DNA from: an uncultured Alphaproteobacteria bacterium
Lineage (GTDB): Bacteria > Pseudomonadota > Alphaproteobacteria > UBA7985 > CAJQQZ01
Assembly (NCBI GenBank): GCA_905480575.1
Contig: CAJQQZ010000073.1
Location: 1 to 32,564, forward strand
Direction: 5' to 3'
DNA: 32,564 bases
How positions within the stretch are numbered: the stretch's first letter is position 1; every line of letters begins with the position of its first letter. The translations under genes and the position numbers were made by a program. Shown piece after piece: positions 2,424 through 32,303 of this stretch. The notes below the pieces were generated by a model that saw only the letters and a list, made by a program, of their open reading frames with translations, was not told the DNA's origin and ran no database searches.

Positions 2424-3659
2424 ATGAAGGCACTATTTTTGCCTGTTATCGGCCTAACGGCGCTGTCTGTGGCTGCCTGCACCTCTACACATCCCAATTA
2501 CGGTGATTTGAAACCCGTGAACCTGCTGATAGAAGAGCAAATTGATGGTTCGCCTGTTGGTGTGACTGGCAAGGCCAAGGTTAGAGACGAACTCGGCTTC
2601 GCTTCCTATACCCCTAGCCCCGTCACTTTTGCCAATGGTGAAGTTGCCGTTTTTGGAAGTGAGTATCAGTATCCCATGATCGCGGGTTCAGTGGCTCTGT
2701 TTAATCCTGATTTGCAGCTCATCTGGCGCAATATTTTCCCTCTTGGACCAACTGCAACAGTGACTGCAGTAACTGAAGGCGATGATGGCTATATCTATGC
2801 TGCGGGTCAATCCAAGCAGCTCGGCGATAAGCCTGCAAAAACCTGGGTGATCAAGTTAGACCGCACCGGCCGTAAACTCTGGCATTGTTCTGTTGGTAAA
2901 GTAAATGTTGTTCCAGCTGCGATCCGGTCCCTTCCGGATGGTTCCGTTGTGGTTGTTGGAACGAAACCCCGCCCTGAACATGGCCACCACGTTTGGTTTG
3001 CTAAAGTGAAACGCAACGGTGCGCTTGCACGCCAGACAACGTTGACAGAAACCCACGCGAAGAGCATTGCCAAGGTATCCCAAAGCGGCAACGACACTTT
3101 TGTTGCCTGGGAGACAGCAACCGGCCAGCGCAGCCACATGACCCGCATCAACCGTCGCGGCAAGCACGTCAAAACCACGCTGCTCACCAACTTCAAGGCC
3201 CCACTTTCGATCCGATCCATGGATACGATCCCTGATCGCGGCATGCTTGGTGCCTTCAAATCGACCGATGGTGGGTTGATGATTGGTCGCTATGACCTTG
3301 ATGGCAACTGGGCTTGGGAAACCAATCATGCTGTTCCAATTCAATGGAGCCATGCTGCAACTCTGGTCACCAGCCATGGCAACAACATCGTTGCTTTGCA
3401 TGAGCCGGTTGGCAGCACTGTTTGGCTCGCTGGATTTGACACTCGTGGAGAAATGCTGTGGCAGAAGACCGTCGACAAAGGTTTGAGGGCACCTGTCTTG
3501 TCGCTGGTCCAGGGGTGGCGCAACCACTTCTCTCTTGTCGTTGCCGACATGGACTTCGGAACAGAAGTGCCTAACGTCAAACGCTTCGATTTCCTTCCCG
3601 ATGGCCGTGAGTATGATACGGTAGTGAGTAACTCATTCCGAGTGGTCGATAGCTACTAG
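2424..3659 (+). CDS. Beta-propeller (PQQ-like repeat) lipoprotein
   Basis: This 411-residue protein has a lipoprotein signal: a short basic start (MK), a hydrophobic core, and a lipobox VAAC with the lipidated Cys at residue 19. Thr follows rather than Asp, which favours outer-membrane placement. The mature part contains recurring strand patterns of the form W-x-x-K-x-D-R-x-G-x-x-x-W (for example IKLDRTGRKLW, then FAKVKRNGAL, then RYDLDGNWAWE, then GFDTRGEMLWQ). These are typical of PQQ-like/Delta_60 propeller blades that pack as a 6- to 8-bladed wheel. Such proteins often act as scaffolds, but no partner (for example BamB in a BAM locus) is nearby, so no role is assigned. A GAG-containing ribosome site lies just before ATG2424. 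The gene is monocistronic and convergent with the membrane protein at 3760-4527. Confidence 0.75.
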   Translation: MKALFLPVIGLTALSVAACTSTHPNYGDLKPVNLLIEEQIDGSPVGVTGKAKVRDELGFASYTPSPVTFANGEVAVFGSEYQYPMIAGSVALFNPDLQLIWRNIFPLGPTATVTAVTEGDDGYIYAAGQSKQLGDKPAKTWVIKLDRTGRKLWHCSVGKVNVVPAAIRSLPDGSVVVVGTKPRPEHGHHVWFAKVKRNGALARQTTLTETHAKSIAKVSQSGNDTFVAWETATGQRSHMTRINRRGKHVKTTLLTNFKAPLSIRSMDTIPDRGMLGAFKSTDGGLMIGRYDLDGNWAWETNHAVPIQWSHAATLVTSHGNNIVALHEPVGSTVWLAGFDTRGEMLWQKTVDKGLRAPVLSLVQGWRNHFSLVVADMDFGTEVPNVKRFDFLPDGREYDTVVSNSFRVVDSY

Positions 3660-3759
3660 GAGACCTTCTGTTCCGTTTGATAACCAAAGAGTTTTCCAAA
3701 CAGCGCATTGGGCCAATCAACGGCGCAATGCACTCACATCTTTACGCCCGTCGCAAAGG

Positions 3760-4527
3760 CTACTGAACCCAGTCCGGCTTCTCATCTAACTGCCCATAGA
3801 TCCATGACAGAGCGGATGTTCCCATGGCCGCAAAAAATAAGGTCAGGAACGGCAGCATTATCGCAATGACAATAATGCCGACTTTTAGCCCACCTACCCC
3901 AAAAGCCACGCTAGCGATAAGAAAGTAAACGATAATGTTGATCAATCCCATGATGAGGAAGAGACAAACATGGCACCAAAAAAGAGACCAAGCAGCTTGC
4001 CTTGTCGCCGCCCAAGAAGAGGCTAGAGTGAAAGAACCATGGCCTATCGCCGCAGCCGGTAAAGCTAGAGACAAACGGGCGTACAAATAAACTGCTATAA
4101 CTGCACCGATGGCAAAGCCTAGAAAGCCAAATCCCATCAAGCCATTCTGAGCGCCGAAGAATGCAAGAGACCAAACAAGAAGCAACATGGGGACAAAGGC
4201 CGCTAAAAATACTAATATAAAACGCCACAGATATAGAGCCTCATTCCACCCGAAGAAAAACCCCAGACCTGTCCTTGGGCTGCCATGGCCCAAAAGTGTG
4301 CTGCGATGCCATGAAGCTGCAAAAGCAACAGAGACAAGTAAACTGACAATGTTGCCGACGGATGAAAACATCGGGTTAAGAATGAAAAAAATTATTGCAA
4401 CCGCCGCTAAGTTGATCAAAGCAGGAATTAGAGCAGCTTTGATCAGGGCCGGGATTGATCCGAAGACGAAACTAAAAGCACCATGAATGACGCTAGAAAT
4501 TGAGATCCCACTGACAGGTTGATTCAT
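3760..4527 (-). CDS. Multi-pass membrane protein, unknown function
   Basis: This 255-residue protein is dominated by hydrophobic segments. About six membrane spans are visible, at roughly residues 25-50, 55-72, 98-122, 126-150, 180-208 and 215-240. A GSFTLASSWAATRQAAW stretch lies between spans 4 and 5. The short C-terminal tail (YGQLDEKPDWVQ) is polar. The overall pattern resembles the small YciC/DUF-type alphaproteobacterial membrane proteins with no known activity. No transporter signature, catalytic motif or binding motif is evident. It stands alone on the minus strand between a convergent lipoprotein gene and the palindrome array, so the neighbourhood gives no clue. Confidence 0.7.
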   Translation of the reverse strand: MNQPVSGISISSVIHGAFSFVFGSIPALIKAALIPALINLAAVAIIFFILNPMFSSVGNIVSLLVSVAFAASWHRSTLLGHGSPRTGLGFFFGWNEALYLWRFILVFLAAFVPMLLLVWSLAFFGAQNGLMGFGFLGFAIGAVIAVYLYARLSLALPAAAIGHGSFTLASSWAATRQAAWSLFWCHVCLFLIMGLINIIVYFLIASVAFGVGGLKVGIIVIAIMLPFLTLFFAAMGTSALSWIYGQLDEKPDWVQ

Positions 4528-4598
4528 GACGTAACGCCTCTGTAAAATAATTTTGCAGACTCAAATTTAGATTGTAGATCTCTAAGGGTTAAGTTGCC

Positions 4599-4713
4599 AT
4601 CCCTAGAAGGAGTGAAACGACTGAAGCGTGTGTTGGGCATTCCGGGTTTTCAATCAGGAGAGCGCTCCTTCAGACAGATCCTTCGGGCACGACGTGCCCT
4701 CTAGGAATAGGGG
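4599..4713. repeat. Long imperfect palindromic repeat, unit A
   Basis: The left arm (CATCCCTAGAAGGAG, then ACTGAAG) and the right arm (CTCCTTCAG through CTCTAGGAATAGGGG) are imperfect reverse complements. The right arm also carries a perfect hairpin, GGGCACGACGTGCCC, at 4685-4699. A spacer at 4714-4782 (AATTGGTAAAGA, later GCCGACACTGAGCGCCTCC) links it to unit B, and that spacer is itself repeated. Confidence 0.8.
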
Positions 4714-4782
4714 GAATTGGTAAAGATCCGTCCCCAGGGCCACCCTTGGGCCGCCGACACTGAGCGCCTCCTCCCTCAGCCT

Positions 4783-4902
4783 CCTATCCCCAGAAGGAGC
4801 GGAGCGACTGAAGCGTGTGTTGGACAATTTGGTCTCTGCCGCAGAAGGAGCGCTCCTTCAAACAGATCCTTCAGGCACGATGTGCCCTCTAGGAATAGGG
4901 GG
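4783..4902. repeat. Long imperfect palindromic repeat, unit B
   Basis: Same organisation as unit A, starting about 184 bases downstream. It contains a perfect 14-base palindrome, AAGGAGCGCTCCTT, at 4845-4858. The conserved hairpin is weakened by one change (GGCAC/GTGCC at 4874-4886). The spacer at 4903-4960 repeats the A-B spacer with small changes. Confidence 0.8.
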
Positions 4903-4960
4903 AATTGGTAGAGAACTGTCCCCCGGGCCCGCCGACACTGAGCACCTCCTCCCCCAGCCT

Positions 4961-5072
4961 CCTATCCCTAGAAGGAGCGAAGCGACTGAAGGGTCTGCTG
5001 AACAATTGGACACCGCTGTAAAAAGAGCGCTCCTTCAGACAGATCCTTCGGGCACGATGTGCCCTCTAGGAA
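4961..5072. repeat. Long imperfect palindromic repeat, unit C (right end cut)
   Basis: Same arms as units A and B, about 179 bases after B. The hairpin GGGCACGATGTGCCC is at 5050-5064. The right end stops matching after CTCTAGGAAT at about 5072, where the other units continue AGGGGG. That point marks one edge of the nuclease-bearing segment. Confidence 0.8.
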
Positions 5073-5150
5073 TGAGTGGCAAATAGTAAGGGATGCGTTT
5101 AGGTTAAACGAAAATTTGTTTCACTCTTTAATATTGCACTCCCCTTGCCA

Positions 5151-5453
5151 ATGCCCCCAGAATATTTTGCTGTCTATATTCTCGCCAACAAAAACAACAC
5201 TTCGATCTACGTAGGCCAAACGAGTGACCTCATGCGGCGTTACTTTGAGCACAAACAAGGCCTGATCAAAGGACATACCAGCAAATACAACATCAACAAA
5301 CTCGTCCATTATGAGCTGGTTGAAGAACGCGCCGCCGCAGTGAAGCGTGAGGCTCAGTTGAAGGGTTGGCTGCGAATGAAGAAAGACAGGTTGATTGAAG
5401 AAGCGAATCCAAACTGGCTTGATTTGGGTGAAGAGCTTTTCATATCACAATGA
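5151..5453 (+). CDS. GIY-YIG family nuclease-like protein
   Basis: This 100-residue single-domain protein is of the YhbQ/UvrC-type GIY-YIG class. The paired motif reads VYI (residues 8-10) and YVG (20-22), followed by QTSDLMRRYFEHK with the conserved Arg and His. Later it has REAQLKGW and the closing NPNWLDL that are usual for the family, including the conserved Glu of the metal site. The domain is complete with no extra DNA-binding module, as is normal for this group. I chose ATG5151; TTG5145 in frame would add two residues. The gene is flanked on both sides by the palindromic repeats (units A-C before, D-E after) and is the only gene inside the array. Family members are structure-specific nucleases of mostly unknown role. 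An association with the repeats is inferred from position only. Confidence 0.85.
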   Translation: MPPEYFAVYILANKNNTSIYVGQTSDLMRRYFEHKQGLIKGHTSKYNINKLVHYELVEERAAAVKREAQLKGWLRMKKDRLIEEANPNWLDLGEELFISQ

Positions 5454-5467
5454 TTTTTCTCTGTCTT

Positions 5468-5536
5468 CCTATCCCTAAAAGGAGCATTCCTTCGAACAGA
5501 TCCTTCGGGCACGATGTGCCCTCTAGGAATAGGGGG
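5468..5536. repeat. Palindromic repeat, unit D (internally deleted)
   Basis: The left arm (TCCTATCCCTAAAAGGAGC) runs almost directly into the right arm (ATCCTTCGGGCAC onward), so the central 40-50 bases of units A-C are missing. The hairpin GGGCACGATGTGCCC is intact at 5507-5521. A spacer at 5537-5591 matches the A-B and B-C spacers. Confidence 0.75.
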
Positions 5537-5591
5537 GATTTGGTAAAGACCCGTCCCCTGGGCCGCCGACACTGAGCGCTTCTTCCCCAAA

Positions 5592-5628
5592 CTCCTATCC
5601 CTAAAAGGAGCGGAGTGACTGAAGGGTG
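5592..5628. repeat. Palindromic repeat, unit E (left arm only)
   Basis: TCCTATCCCTAAAAGGAG, then CGGAGTGACTGAAGGG, matches the left arm of the other units. No matching right arm follows before trmFO, so this is the truncated end of the array. Confidence 0.65.
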
Positions 5629-5718
5629 TGTTTGACGTATTAACTCGACAATCAAACAGCGGCCCATCTAGGTTATGACCTCTAGCTCCACGCCTTCTTC
5701 TCTGCTAGAAGCCGCGCT

Positions 5719-7089
5719 ATGATGACTCATAGTAAAAAAGTACATGTCGTTGGCGGCGGTCTCGCTGGTTCTGAAGCAACCTGGCAGTTGGCAAAAGCTG
5801 GCATTCCCGTGATCCTGCACGAGATGCGTCCTGTGCGTGAAACAGAGGCCCACATCACTGCCAACCTGGCTGAGTTGGTTTGTTCCAACTCTTTCCGCTC
5901 TGATGACCACGAGGCCAACGCGGTTGGTGTCTTGCATGAAGAAATGCGCCGCATGGGTTCGATCATAATGTCATCGGCTGATGCCAATTCTGTTCCTGCA
6001 GGCGGAGCCTTAGCGGTTGATCGCCATGGCTACAGCGCCGCGGTCGAGAAAACGCTTGAAGATCACCCGTTGGTCGAGATTCAACGTGAAGAAATCACCA
6101 GTTTGGATCAGCTTGGTGGCGGTCTTTCCATCATTGCATCGGGGCCTCTCACCGCTCCCGATCTTTCAAACCAGATCCAGGGGTTGGCCGACGAAGACTC
6201 CTTGGCCTTCTTCGACGCCATCGCGCCAATCCTACACAAAGACTCAATCGACTTTGACAAAGTTTGGTACCAATCCCGCTACGACAAGGGCGATGGCCAG
6301 GACTACATCAACTGCCCGCTCGACGAAGAGCAATACAACGCCTTCATCGACGCGCTGATTGCAGGTGATAAAACTGAATTCAAAGACTGGGAAAAAGACA
6401 CACAATACTTCGAAGGCTGTTTACCCATCGAAGTGATGGCGGAGCGTGGTCGCGAAACTTTACGCTTTGGCCCTATGAAGCCGGTAGGTTTGACCAACCC
6501 CCACAACCCAACTGTCAAAGCCCACGCGATTATTCAGCTGCGTCAGGACAATGCACTGGGCACACTCTACAATCTCGTCGGATTCCAAACGAAACTGAGG
6601 TACGGCGCGCAGGTCGAGATCTTCCGCACGATCCCTGGCCTTGAGAAAGCTGAGTTCGCTCGCCTCGGTGGTATTCACCGTAATACTTTCATGAACTCTC
6701 CACGTTTGTTGGATAAGACACTGCGCCATAAGTCAAAACCGAACCTACGTTTTGCCGGCCAAATGACAGGCGTTGAAGGCTATATAGAGAGTGCGGCTTG
6801 TGGTCTGCTCGCGGCAACCTTCACCATTGCTGAACTGCAAGGCAAAGAGATCCCTGCTCCACCGATCACGACTTCGCTCGGCGCGCTGCTCAACCATATT
6901 ACTGAAGAAGCCAATGCAGAGACTTTTCAACCGATGAACGTCAACTTCGGCCTGATGCCACCACCCCCCATTCAGAAAACGGCCAATGGCAAGAATCGCA
7001 AGCTCAAAGGCCGTGATCGCAAGGCCTGGATGGCGGCAAGAGCGCTAGAAGACCATGGAAAATGGCTAGCCGGATTAGATCTAGAATAG
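5719..7089 (+). CDS. trmFO: Methylenetetrahydrofolate--tRNA-(uracil-5-)-methyltransferase TrmFO
   Basis: TrmFO makes 5-methyluridine at position 54 of the tRNA T-loop, using 5,10-methylene-tetrahydrofolate as carbon donor and reduced FAD. The 456-residue length is normal. The FAD-binding GGGLAGSEA is at residues 12-20. The signature [10 protein letters not shown] carries the first conserved Cys (Cys55), and [14 protein letters not shown] carries the second (Cys234). [20 protein letters not shown] and [19 protein letters not shown] follow as in the family. AGAAG lies 7 bases before the tandem ATG ATG start at 5719; 5722 is also possible. The 3' end overlaps the convergent permease gene by 9 bases. 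The palindrome array lies immediately upstream, so any promoter must be in or next to unit E. Confidence 0.95.
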
Positions 7090-30858: not shown

Positions 30859-31539
30859 ATGCATTTTTCAGTAACAAATACAGTTGACCAGAATTTTAAA
30901 ATTTTGATTGATGGTTCCACAGAGTTGGGATGCCCCTATCAATCATATGGTTGTTTGACTGGCAACGTTGGAATTCCCGGTAAAACACCTGCCGTTTTAC
31001 TTAATTATCCAGCTGCTTGGACGCAAAGATACTTCGAAAAGGAGTACTTCGCCATCGATCCCGTCATTCAAATACCGCCCCATCGCACGACTTCATTCCT
31101 TTGGTCAGAAATGACAGGACTTACGAAAGACCAAGTAACCTTGATGAGGGACGCAAAAAGCCATGGCTTGAGCGAAGGATTAGCTATTCAGTTGTTTGGC
31201 CCTTCAAGGACTCGATTTGTTGTCGGCTTTGCAACGGACGACCCAATATCAAAGGAAGCAGTAGATCAACTCGTGTCTTTGGCAACATCATTCCACACGG
31301 CCGTATTGCCATCGCTTAAAGTCGAGGGCGATACTACGGGAATGATACTGAATGCTAGACAAACAGAAATGCTACATTTGCTGGCACAATCCCCTGGATT
31401 AAGCCATCAAGAAATGGCGAATCACTTAAATATTACATTAGGTGCTGTTTCTAAGCGTTTGGAAAAATTGAGAATAATGTTTGGCGTAACGAAAGATACT
31501 GCTTTAGTCTCACAAGCGTTAACCAAGGGATTTATTTAA
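30859..31539 (+). CDS. LuxR-family quorum-sensing transcriptional regulator
   Basis: This 226-residue regulator has an autoinducer-binding domain (about 1-155) and a C-terminal helix-turn-helix (about 165-226). Ligand-pocket residues match the family: Trp54, Tyr58, Asp67, Pro68, Trp82 and the Gly of SHGLSEG. The DNA-binding domain is divergent: LNARQTEMLHLL holds the usual Glu170 and Leu174, but the recognition helix reads ITLGAVSKRLEKLR instead of SxxTVxxHxxxI. AGAGATAGGA provides a ribosome site about 10 bases before ATG30859. The gene is co-oriented with luxI, 68 bases away, and so is probably its cognate receptor. AT-rich composition suggests acquisition. Confidence 0.9.
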   Translation: MHFSVTNTVDQNFKILIDGSTELGCPYQSYGCLTGNVGIPGKTPAVLLNYPAAWTQRYFEKEYFAIDPVIQIPPHRTTSFLWSEMTGLTKDQVTLMRDAKSHGLSEGLAIQLFGPSRTRFVVGFATDDPISKEAVDQLVSLATSFHTAVLPSLKVEGDTTGMILNARQTEMLHLLAQSPGLSHQEMANHLNITLGAVSKRLEKLRIMFGVTKDTALVSQALTKGFI

Positions 31540-31607: not shown

Positions 31608-32303
31608 ATGTTTGAAAAAGTTATTTCCTGGGCAGATGCCGTTGACGACGGTGATCTGTGGATTTCCATGCATCAATTACGCAAACAAGAGTTTGTAGAC
31701 AGATTAGGTTATGACGTGCCAGAGGACGATGGTCTGGAATATGATCAATACGATACTCCTGCTGCACGCTATGCAATCGCCTACAATGATGACAGACGAG
31801 TCATTGGCACCATGCGTTTGACGCCAACTCTTAAACCCTACATGCTGAAAGATCTTTGGCCTGAACTCCTTCCTCCTGCCTTCGTGCCAAACAAATCGAT
31901 CTGGGAAGCTTCCAGGATTGTAATTAACAAAACAGATAACATGGCAGTTCGTAAAGAAGCTTTGATGCGGGTTCTAACTGTTTCTCAAAAATTCGGTATT
32001 GACAACAACATCAGCTCATTTATTGGCGTTATGTACCCTGGCATTTGGAGAGCTGCAATTTTGAGGAATGGTTGCCCAGCCACGAAGATAGCACAAATCA
32101 AACAGGGGGACAAAACCCTGCAATCTGGCAGCGTTCCGGTCTCAGAAGAGGCCTACCGAACTATGAAAAATCGCATCACTGATTTTACATCGACAAACAA
32201 GTTTGCGATTCCGAGCAGAAATACATCTTTGGCCATCGAGCCCGCCTTTGTTGTTTCACAGGATGGTTTGCCTAAGACGCCAGTTTCATCCCAGTCCCGC
32301 TAA
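31608..32303 (+). CDS. Acyl-homoserine-lactone synthase (LuxI family)
   Basis: LuxI-type enzymes join an acyl group to SAM and release an acyl-homoserine lactone signal. The 231-residue protein has the invariant Arg25, Phe29, Asp46, Asp49, Arg70, Glu100 and Arg103 of the family (LRKQEFVDRLGYDVP, LEYDQYDTP, GTMRLTP, WEASRIVI). The usual Trp of LGWDVP is Tyr35 here. The C-terminal region that contacts the acyl chain (about 130-231) is present but divergent, so chain length cannot be predicted. A weak dyad CTCAAT-N7-ATCGAG at 31582-31600 lies just before the start. The gene is next to luxR and the likely producer of its signal. Confidence 0.93.
   Translation: MFEKVISWADAVDDGDLWISMHQLRKQEFVDRLGYDVPEDDGLEYDQYDTPAARYAIAYNDDRRVIGTMRLTPTLKPYMLKDLWPELLPPAFVPNKSIWEASRIVINKTDNMAVRKEALMRVLTVSQKFGIDNNISSFIGVMYPGIWRAAILRNGCPATKIAQIKQGDKTLQSGSVPVSEEAYRTMKNRITDFTSTNKFAIPSRNTSLAIEPAFVVSQDGLPKTPVSSQSR

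Follow-up and report, generated by a model that had tools for sequence, protein, structure and literature searches.

The question raised by this locus is why a gene for a small, stand-alone GIY-YIG nuclease should occupy the place of a spacer in a palindromic repeat array. The locus lies within a 32,564-nucleotide stretch of DNA from an uncultured alphaproteobacterium (hereafter the window), corresponding to contig C73 in the draft genome G000 (4.03 Mb). A tandem array of approximately 180-bp units spans positions 4596-5632, with a 255-aa membrane-protein gene (3760-4527, minus strand) on one side and trmFO (5719-7089) on the other. Each unit is composed of an inverted pair of one 39-nt REP-like arm (consensus CCTAT[T/C]CCTAGA, a hairpin, GAAGG[A/G]TCTGTT), after which comes a 60-71-bp spacer. 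Left arms on the plus strand begin at 4596, 4783, 4961 and 5594, and right arms on the minus strand end at 4711, 4899, 5076 and 5533. Units A (4596-4711; arms 4596-4634 and 4673-4711), B (4783-4899; arms 4783-4821 and 4861-4899) and C (4961-5076; arms 4961-4999 and 5038-5076) are complete, while unit E is represented by its left arm (5594-5632). Unit D (5470-5533) is internally deleted: the inside of its left arm and the core are missing and the left-arm stub is fused to the right arm (5495-5533), a loss that, judging from the letters themselves, apparently arose by deletion between short direct repeats. The spacers A-B (4712-4782, 71 bp), B-C (4900-4960, 61 bp) and D-E (5534-5593, 60 bp) are alike.

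The spacer between units C and D is replaced by a segment of approximately 395 bp (5073-5467), beside whose gene no significant trace of a spacer remnant was detected. The initial annotation had set the end of the match of unit C at 5072 and the start of unit D at 5468, with one complete GIY-YIG gene in between in place of the spacer, and it is confirmed on both counts: unit C agrees with its sister units up to and including CTCTAGGAAT, which ends at 5072-5073, the next unit resumes from 5468-5470, and the gene (5151-5453, plus strand) encodes a 100-aa product with a match to Pfam PF01541 (E 5.3e-15). Translation likely starts at ATG 5151 rather than at the in-frame TTG 5145, which would yield 102 aa. 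The Y/Y/R/E/N catalytic pattern is intact, residues Y11, Y22, G24, R32, E69 and N88 being invariant among 16 homologues, and the nearest folds of the structure model (pLDDT 87) are UPF0213, Slx1 and UvrC. The gene sits between repeat pairs, not inside one, and the tag of the upstream arm faces it. Far from the array, two adjacent open reading frames (30859-31539 and 31608-32303) resemble, by eye, a LuxR-type regulator and a LuxI-type autoinducer synthase.

At least 38 window-type arms, mostly as inverted pairs, were detected in G000 with an arm covariance model; this count is a lower bound because the best 150 candidates alone were scored. This number, together with array copies that share 74-82% identity over 110 nt, indicates that the array is not a product of chance. 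Among 37 distinct arms 83.6% of the cells pair, and seven of the 11 pairs show changes on both sides; double-changed cells numbered 41, versus 13.9 in shuffles, and the covariation score was reached by none of 500 shuffles and was lost when the partner was slid by one to three columns. When folded as single-stranded DNA, right arms are stable, and left arms are mismatched and fold poorly alone. Such stem covariation is also compatible with RNA, and the repeats are located no more than tens of bases from where the gene starts and stops, so they could be terminators or RNA-processing hairpins that control a gene whose protein does not act on them. We regard this as quite improbable, since the same repeats are dispersed away from any GIY-YIG gene and are absent at unrelated genes such as trmFO, and a search of positions 3600-5800 against Rfam returned no match.

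The survey of homologues covered nearest homologues, draft genomes and one sister species: among 385 genomes of the class, 29 each contributed their nearest homologue, of which 28 had both flanks, and a locus was considered bracketed when upstream and downstream copies matched each other with a local score of at least 30. Matching repeats were found on both sides of 23 of the 28 homologues, versus none of 160 pseudo-gene positions drawn at random from those genomes (Fisher 5e-25), and none of 24 trmFO control loci was bracketed; therefore, the link between gene and repeat is not coincidental. The five loci below the threshold mostly carry, by eye, recognisable repeats that are diverged or one-sided. 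Typically, the gene lies inside and, in most loci, the tags point outward, with repeats that usually end less than approximately 120 nt from the gene. Inverted copies occur near both gene ends, of 82 nt at 98% identity at L108, of 121 nt at 93% at L109, and of 27-33 nt at 97-100% at L113, L104 and L118. Many of the bracketing repeats of class homologues fit the CGTC REP form GTCATYCC...GGRATCCA, and the two nearest homologues in other phyla display the same grammar, TGTCATYC...GAAGRATCTC. A contig search with a single protein returned two loci, both of them repeat-bracketed.

Repeat similarity tracks protein similarity (Mantel rho 0.18; 2/2000 permutations), and the three small GIY-YIG loci of G000 (C73, C161 and C182) all lie among repeats that belong to three different families, that of C161 beginning with TGTCAT. 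The initial annotation had proposed that the flanks of homologues would be enriched for the same repeats. Hairpin repeats are indeed enriched there, as the above counts demonstrate, whereas the notion of the same repeats is unsupported because each gene has its own repeat family. At L003 (G000:C161:3840-4616) two tandem small GIY-YIG genes alternate with TGTCATTCCGAG-type repeats, a layout suggestive of duplication of gene plus repeat as one unit. The 255-aa gene beside the window array, which has no Pfam match, has relatives at L085:6271-7092 and L003:2163-2747 (42% and 35% aa), which also adjoin REP or GIY-YIG loci.

To assess dispersal, nine repeat types and as many control pieces were joined into one query and searched against nine genomes. 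The matches of a given repeat type fall mainly in its own genome, with approximately 55 in G271, 31 in G279, approximately 7 in G248 and approximately 13 in G000 (C182 type), versus own loci and a few weak matches for the control pieces. Of the seven other genomes, three have the flanking repeat spread genome-wide, and in the remaining four (G290, G367, G233 and G013) few or no copies occur beyond the locus; thus in G000 and in several other genomes the cognate repeat is present both beside the gene and elsewhere in the same genome. The window-type repeat is represented by one pair (2 arms) in G001, the sole genome of the same genus, and by none in six more distant genomes (the same search, with the best 150 candidates scored), nor was any such arm found in 189 other genomes of the class. 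Within G000 all detected window-type arms reside on six of 189 contigs (C73, C59, C16, C182, C48 and C164), approximately 6% of the genome, a clustering that may reflect either local spread or contigs that are neighbours in the chromosome.

Co-occurrence at the level of whole genomes was assessed with a CGTC-type REP pattern, GTCATYCCN{5,14}GGRATCCA, which misses many repeat types including that of the window. At least five copies were present in 47 of 122 genomes that carry a GIY-YIG homologue (E up to 1e-12) versus 13 of 263 without (OR 12), and these 13 genomes without a close homologue are mostly relatives of gene-bearing ones. The reversed control pattern gave zero. When counted by taxonomic family, a grouping that corrects in part for phylogeny and whose total of 174 families derives from genome label numbering, the figures are 36/76 versus 4/98 (OR 21).

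The sister species G001, a genome 84% complete, carries a trmFO that is 95% identical to that of G000, and its orthologous intergenic region contains one repeat pair, without the GIY-YIG gene and without the 255-aa gene; three other small GIY-YIG genes are present in that genome. As G001 retains a pair at its trmFO site, the repeat was probably already there in the common ancestor of the two species, and it can persist at this site without a local copy of the gene. With regard to the empty sites whose search had been proposed initially, this G001 site lacks the gene and holds the repeat; the difference may stem from gain of gene and units in G000 or from loss in G001. It could be argued from the G001 trmFO site, where repeats exist without a local gene, and from the several kinds of extra sequence that have gathered at the window spot, including the 255-aa gene absent in G001, that gene and repeats merely accumulate in tolerant intergenic gaps and have no functional link. 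We consider this very improbable in view of 23 of 28 bracketed loci versus none of 160 random places, the match of every gene to its own repeat type, and a co-occurrence that persists by taxonomic family.

A further explanation is that the gene and its bracketing repeats constitute an autonomous minimal mobile element, of which the dispersed REPs are non-autonomous miniatures that the GIY-YIG protein mobilises, much as RAYTs have been proposed to do with GTAG REPs. The inverted copies found no more than tens of bases from either end of the gene at the five loci named above speak for it, as do the lineage specificity of the repeat families and a repeat pair at C59:25161 in G000 that is absent from the orthologous G001 site. 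On the other hand, at that mapped site outside the window only the repeat pair differs and not the gene, neither target-site duplication nor precise excision was observed, and we know of no strand transfer by GIY-YIG enzymes, so that we judge this explanation unlikely. RAYTs were also considered as the driver and rejected: the HuH tyrosine transposase (PF01797) is represented in G000 by one fragment with an 89-aa frame (L052) and in G001 by one copy with two stops (L051), neither having such repeats nearby. Two further features of G001 were recorded. At L125 (G001:C51, approximately 2781-3028), a site orthologous to a window-type pair, a CCCCGTCCTTCGACGGGGAAG repeat resembles the C182 family, which would fit insertion spots shared between repeat families; and two G001 contigs with different GIY-YIG genes (L015:1-140 and L019:1-140) have the same first approximately 140 bases.

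The reading that we favour, with confidence somewhat above even, is that the stand-alone GIY-YIG nuclease targets the imperfect hairpin repeats that surround it, and that the two together make up an inherited nuclease/REP module, of which the class holds many. Its support comprises the anatomy of the locus, the intact catalytic residues, the covarying stems, the bracketing of homologues, the dispersal of cognate repeats and the co-occurrence across genomes. Against it stand the sister pair without a gene, the 13 genomes rich in CGTC-type copies that have no close homologue, the four of seven genomes with few or no copies outside the locus, the poorly folding left arms, the absence of a CGTC tag and the position of the window gene between repeat pairs. 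Enzymes of the GIY-YIG kind cleave DNA strands by hydrolysis, and the substrates of Slx1 and UvrC are branched or distorted DNA. By analogy with TnpA-REP on GTAG REPs, the nuclease would bind and cut its own repeat in folded single-stranded form, which could be exposed on the lagging strand or in incoming DNA, each gene in the class being paired with its own repeat type. As GIY-YIG enzymes hydrolyse and are not expected to transfer strands, such cutting would act through repair, and breaks repaired from other REP copies would lead to gain, loss and spread of units by a homing-like route, while affecting recombination or DNA uptake nearby. Homing-like repair of this kind would account for a four-unit array and dispersed copies in the gene-bearing G000, and for one unit at the site in its gene-less sister. 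Cleavage, binding and the spread or mobility of the repeats are inferred by analogy.

REPs rank among the commonest chromosomal repeats of bacteria, and those of the GTAG type have RAYTs as partners. The controlled class-wide association presented here makes small GIY-YIG nucleases a candidate partner of CGTC REPs, and matched pairs of gene and repeat such as that of the window render the question testable in vitro. A more far-reaching proposal, possible rather than probable in our estimation, is that these nucleases are the missing dedicated partners of CGTC-type REPs in alphaproteobacteria and in other phyla, and define a second, transposase-free class of REPtrons, in which hydrolytic cutting of folded single-stranded repeats, followed by copying during repair, would drive their spread. 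The window locus would then be a lineage-specific, re-tagged example caught while expanding, with four units and the gene in G000 as against one unit and no gene in the sister. If true, this would assign a function to many small proteins that are annotated merely as 'GIY-YIG nuclease family'.

Di Nocera 2013 (PMC3733652) describes CGTC REPs as mainly alphaproteobacterial, as including the dRS3 of Neisseria, as forming inverted dimers and as repeats that 'apparently lack a dedicated transposase', in passages that make no link to GIY-YIG proteins. Like these REPs, the window repeat is short and imperfectly palindromic, has AT at its stem base and forms inverted dimers, whereas its arm opens with CCTAT where theirs has CGTCAT, and ends in a CTG tail in place of CCA; a CGTC, TGTC or CCTC end tag is absent from the window arms. 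RAYT genes lie between inverted REPs, and their occurrence goes with REP abundance (PMC2817692), and TnpA-REP processes single-stranded REP hairpins, with recognition of the imperfect palindrome, its bulge and its tag (PMC8266576). The initial annotation had likened the locus to RAYT/REP pairs, and the analogy fits in anatomy, cognate dispersed copies and genome-level co-occurrence, the best reading being a REPtron-like module of enzyme and repeats that has no RAYT. As in the REPtron and REPIN systems (PMC2817692, PMC8266576, PMC3116915), GIY-YIG genes of the class are in most homologues flanked by inverted REPs (in the window the gene lies between two repeat pairs), cognate copies are dispersed, gene presence tracks repeat abundance and enzyme and repeat apparently co-vary; unlike them, the enzyme is a GIY-YIG hydrolase and not a HuH tyrosine transposase, and the repeats have no GTAG tag.

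The window protein shares with UPF0213 (YhbQ-like), Slx1 and UvrC the fold and catalytic residues of the GIY-YIG domain, although in UvrC and Slx1 this is a domain within a larger repair protein, and to our knowledge none of the three has been linked to REPs. In the literature searched we found nothing relevant that couples GIY-YIG proteins with REP, RAYT or dRS3. A 2025 paper on the Ssn family reportedly describes site-specific, small GIY-YIG nucleases whose target in Neisseria is a repeated sequence, dRS3/CGTC-like, that they cut as single-stranded DNA, with thousands of homologues that have matching target sequences. This Ssn family we take to be the closest known kin of the window system, and, given it, the pairing of GIY-YIG nucleases with repeats seems not to be new. 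Both combine a small stand-alone GIY-YIG protein with a cognate repeat dispersed in its own genome, whereas the window repeat differs from the reported Ssn target in being lineage-specific, in its lack of a CGTC tag, in its heterodimeric pairs and in its tandem array. In conclusion, if Ssn nucleases are as reported, the general kind of system is known, and what the window adds is a lineage-specific repeat family that lacks the CGTC tag, its arrangement as a tandem array, and a nuclease gene placed in an inter-unit spacer.
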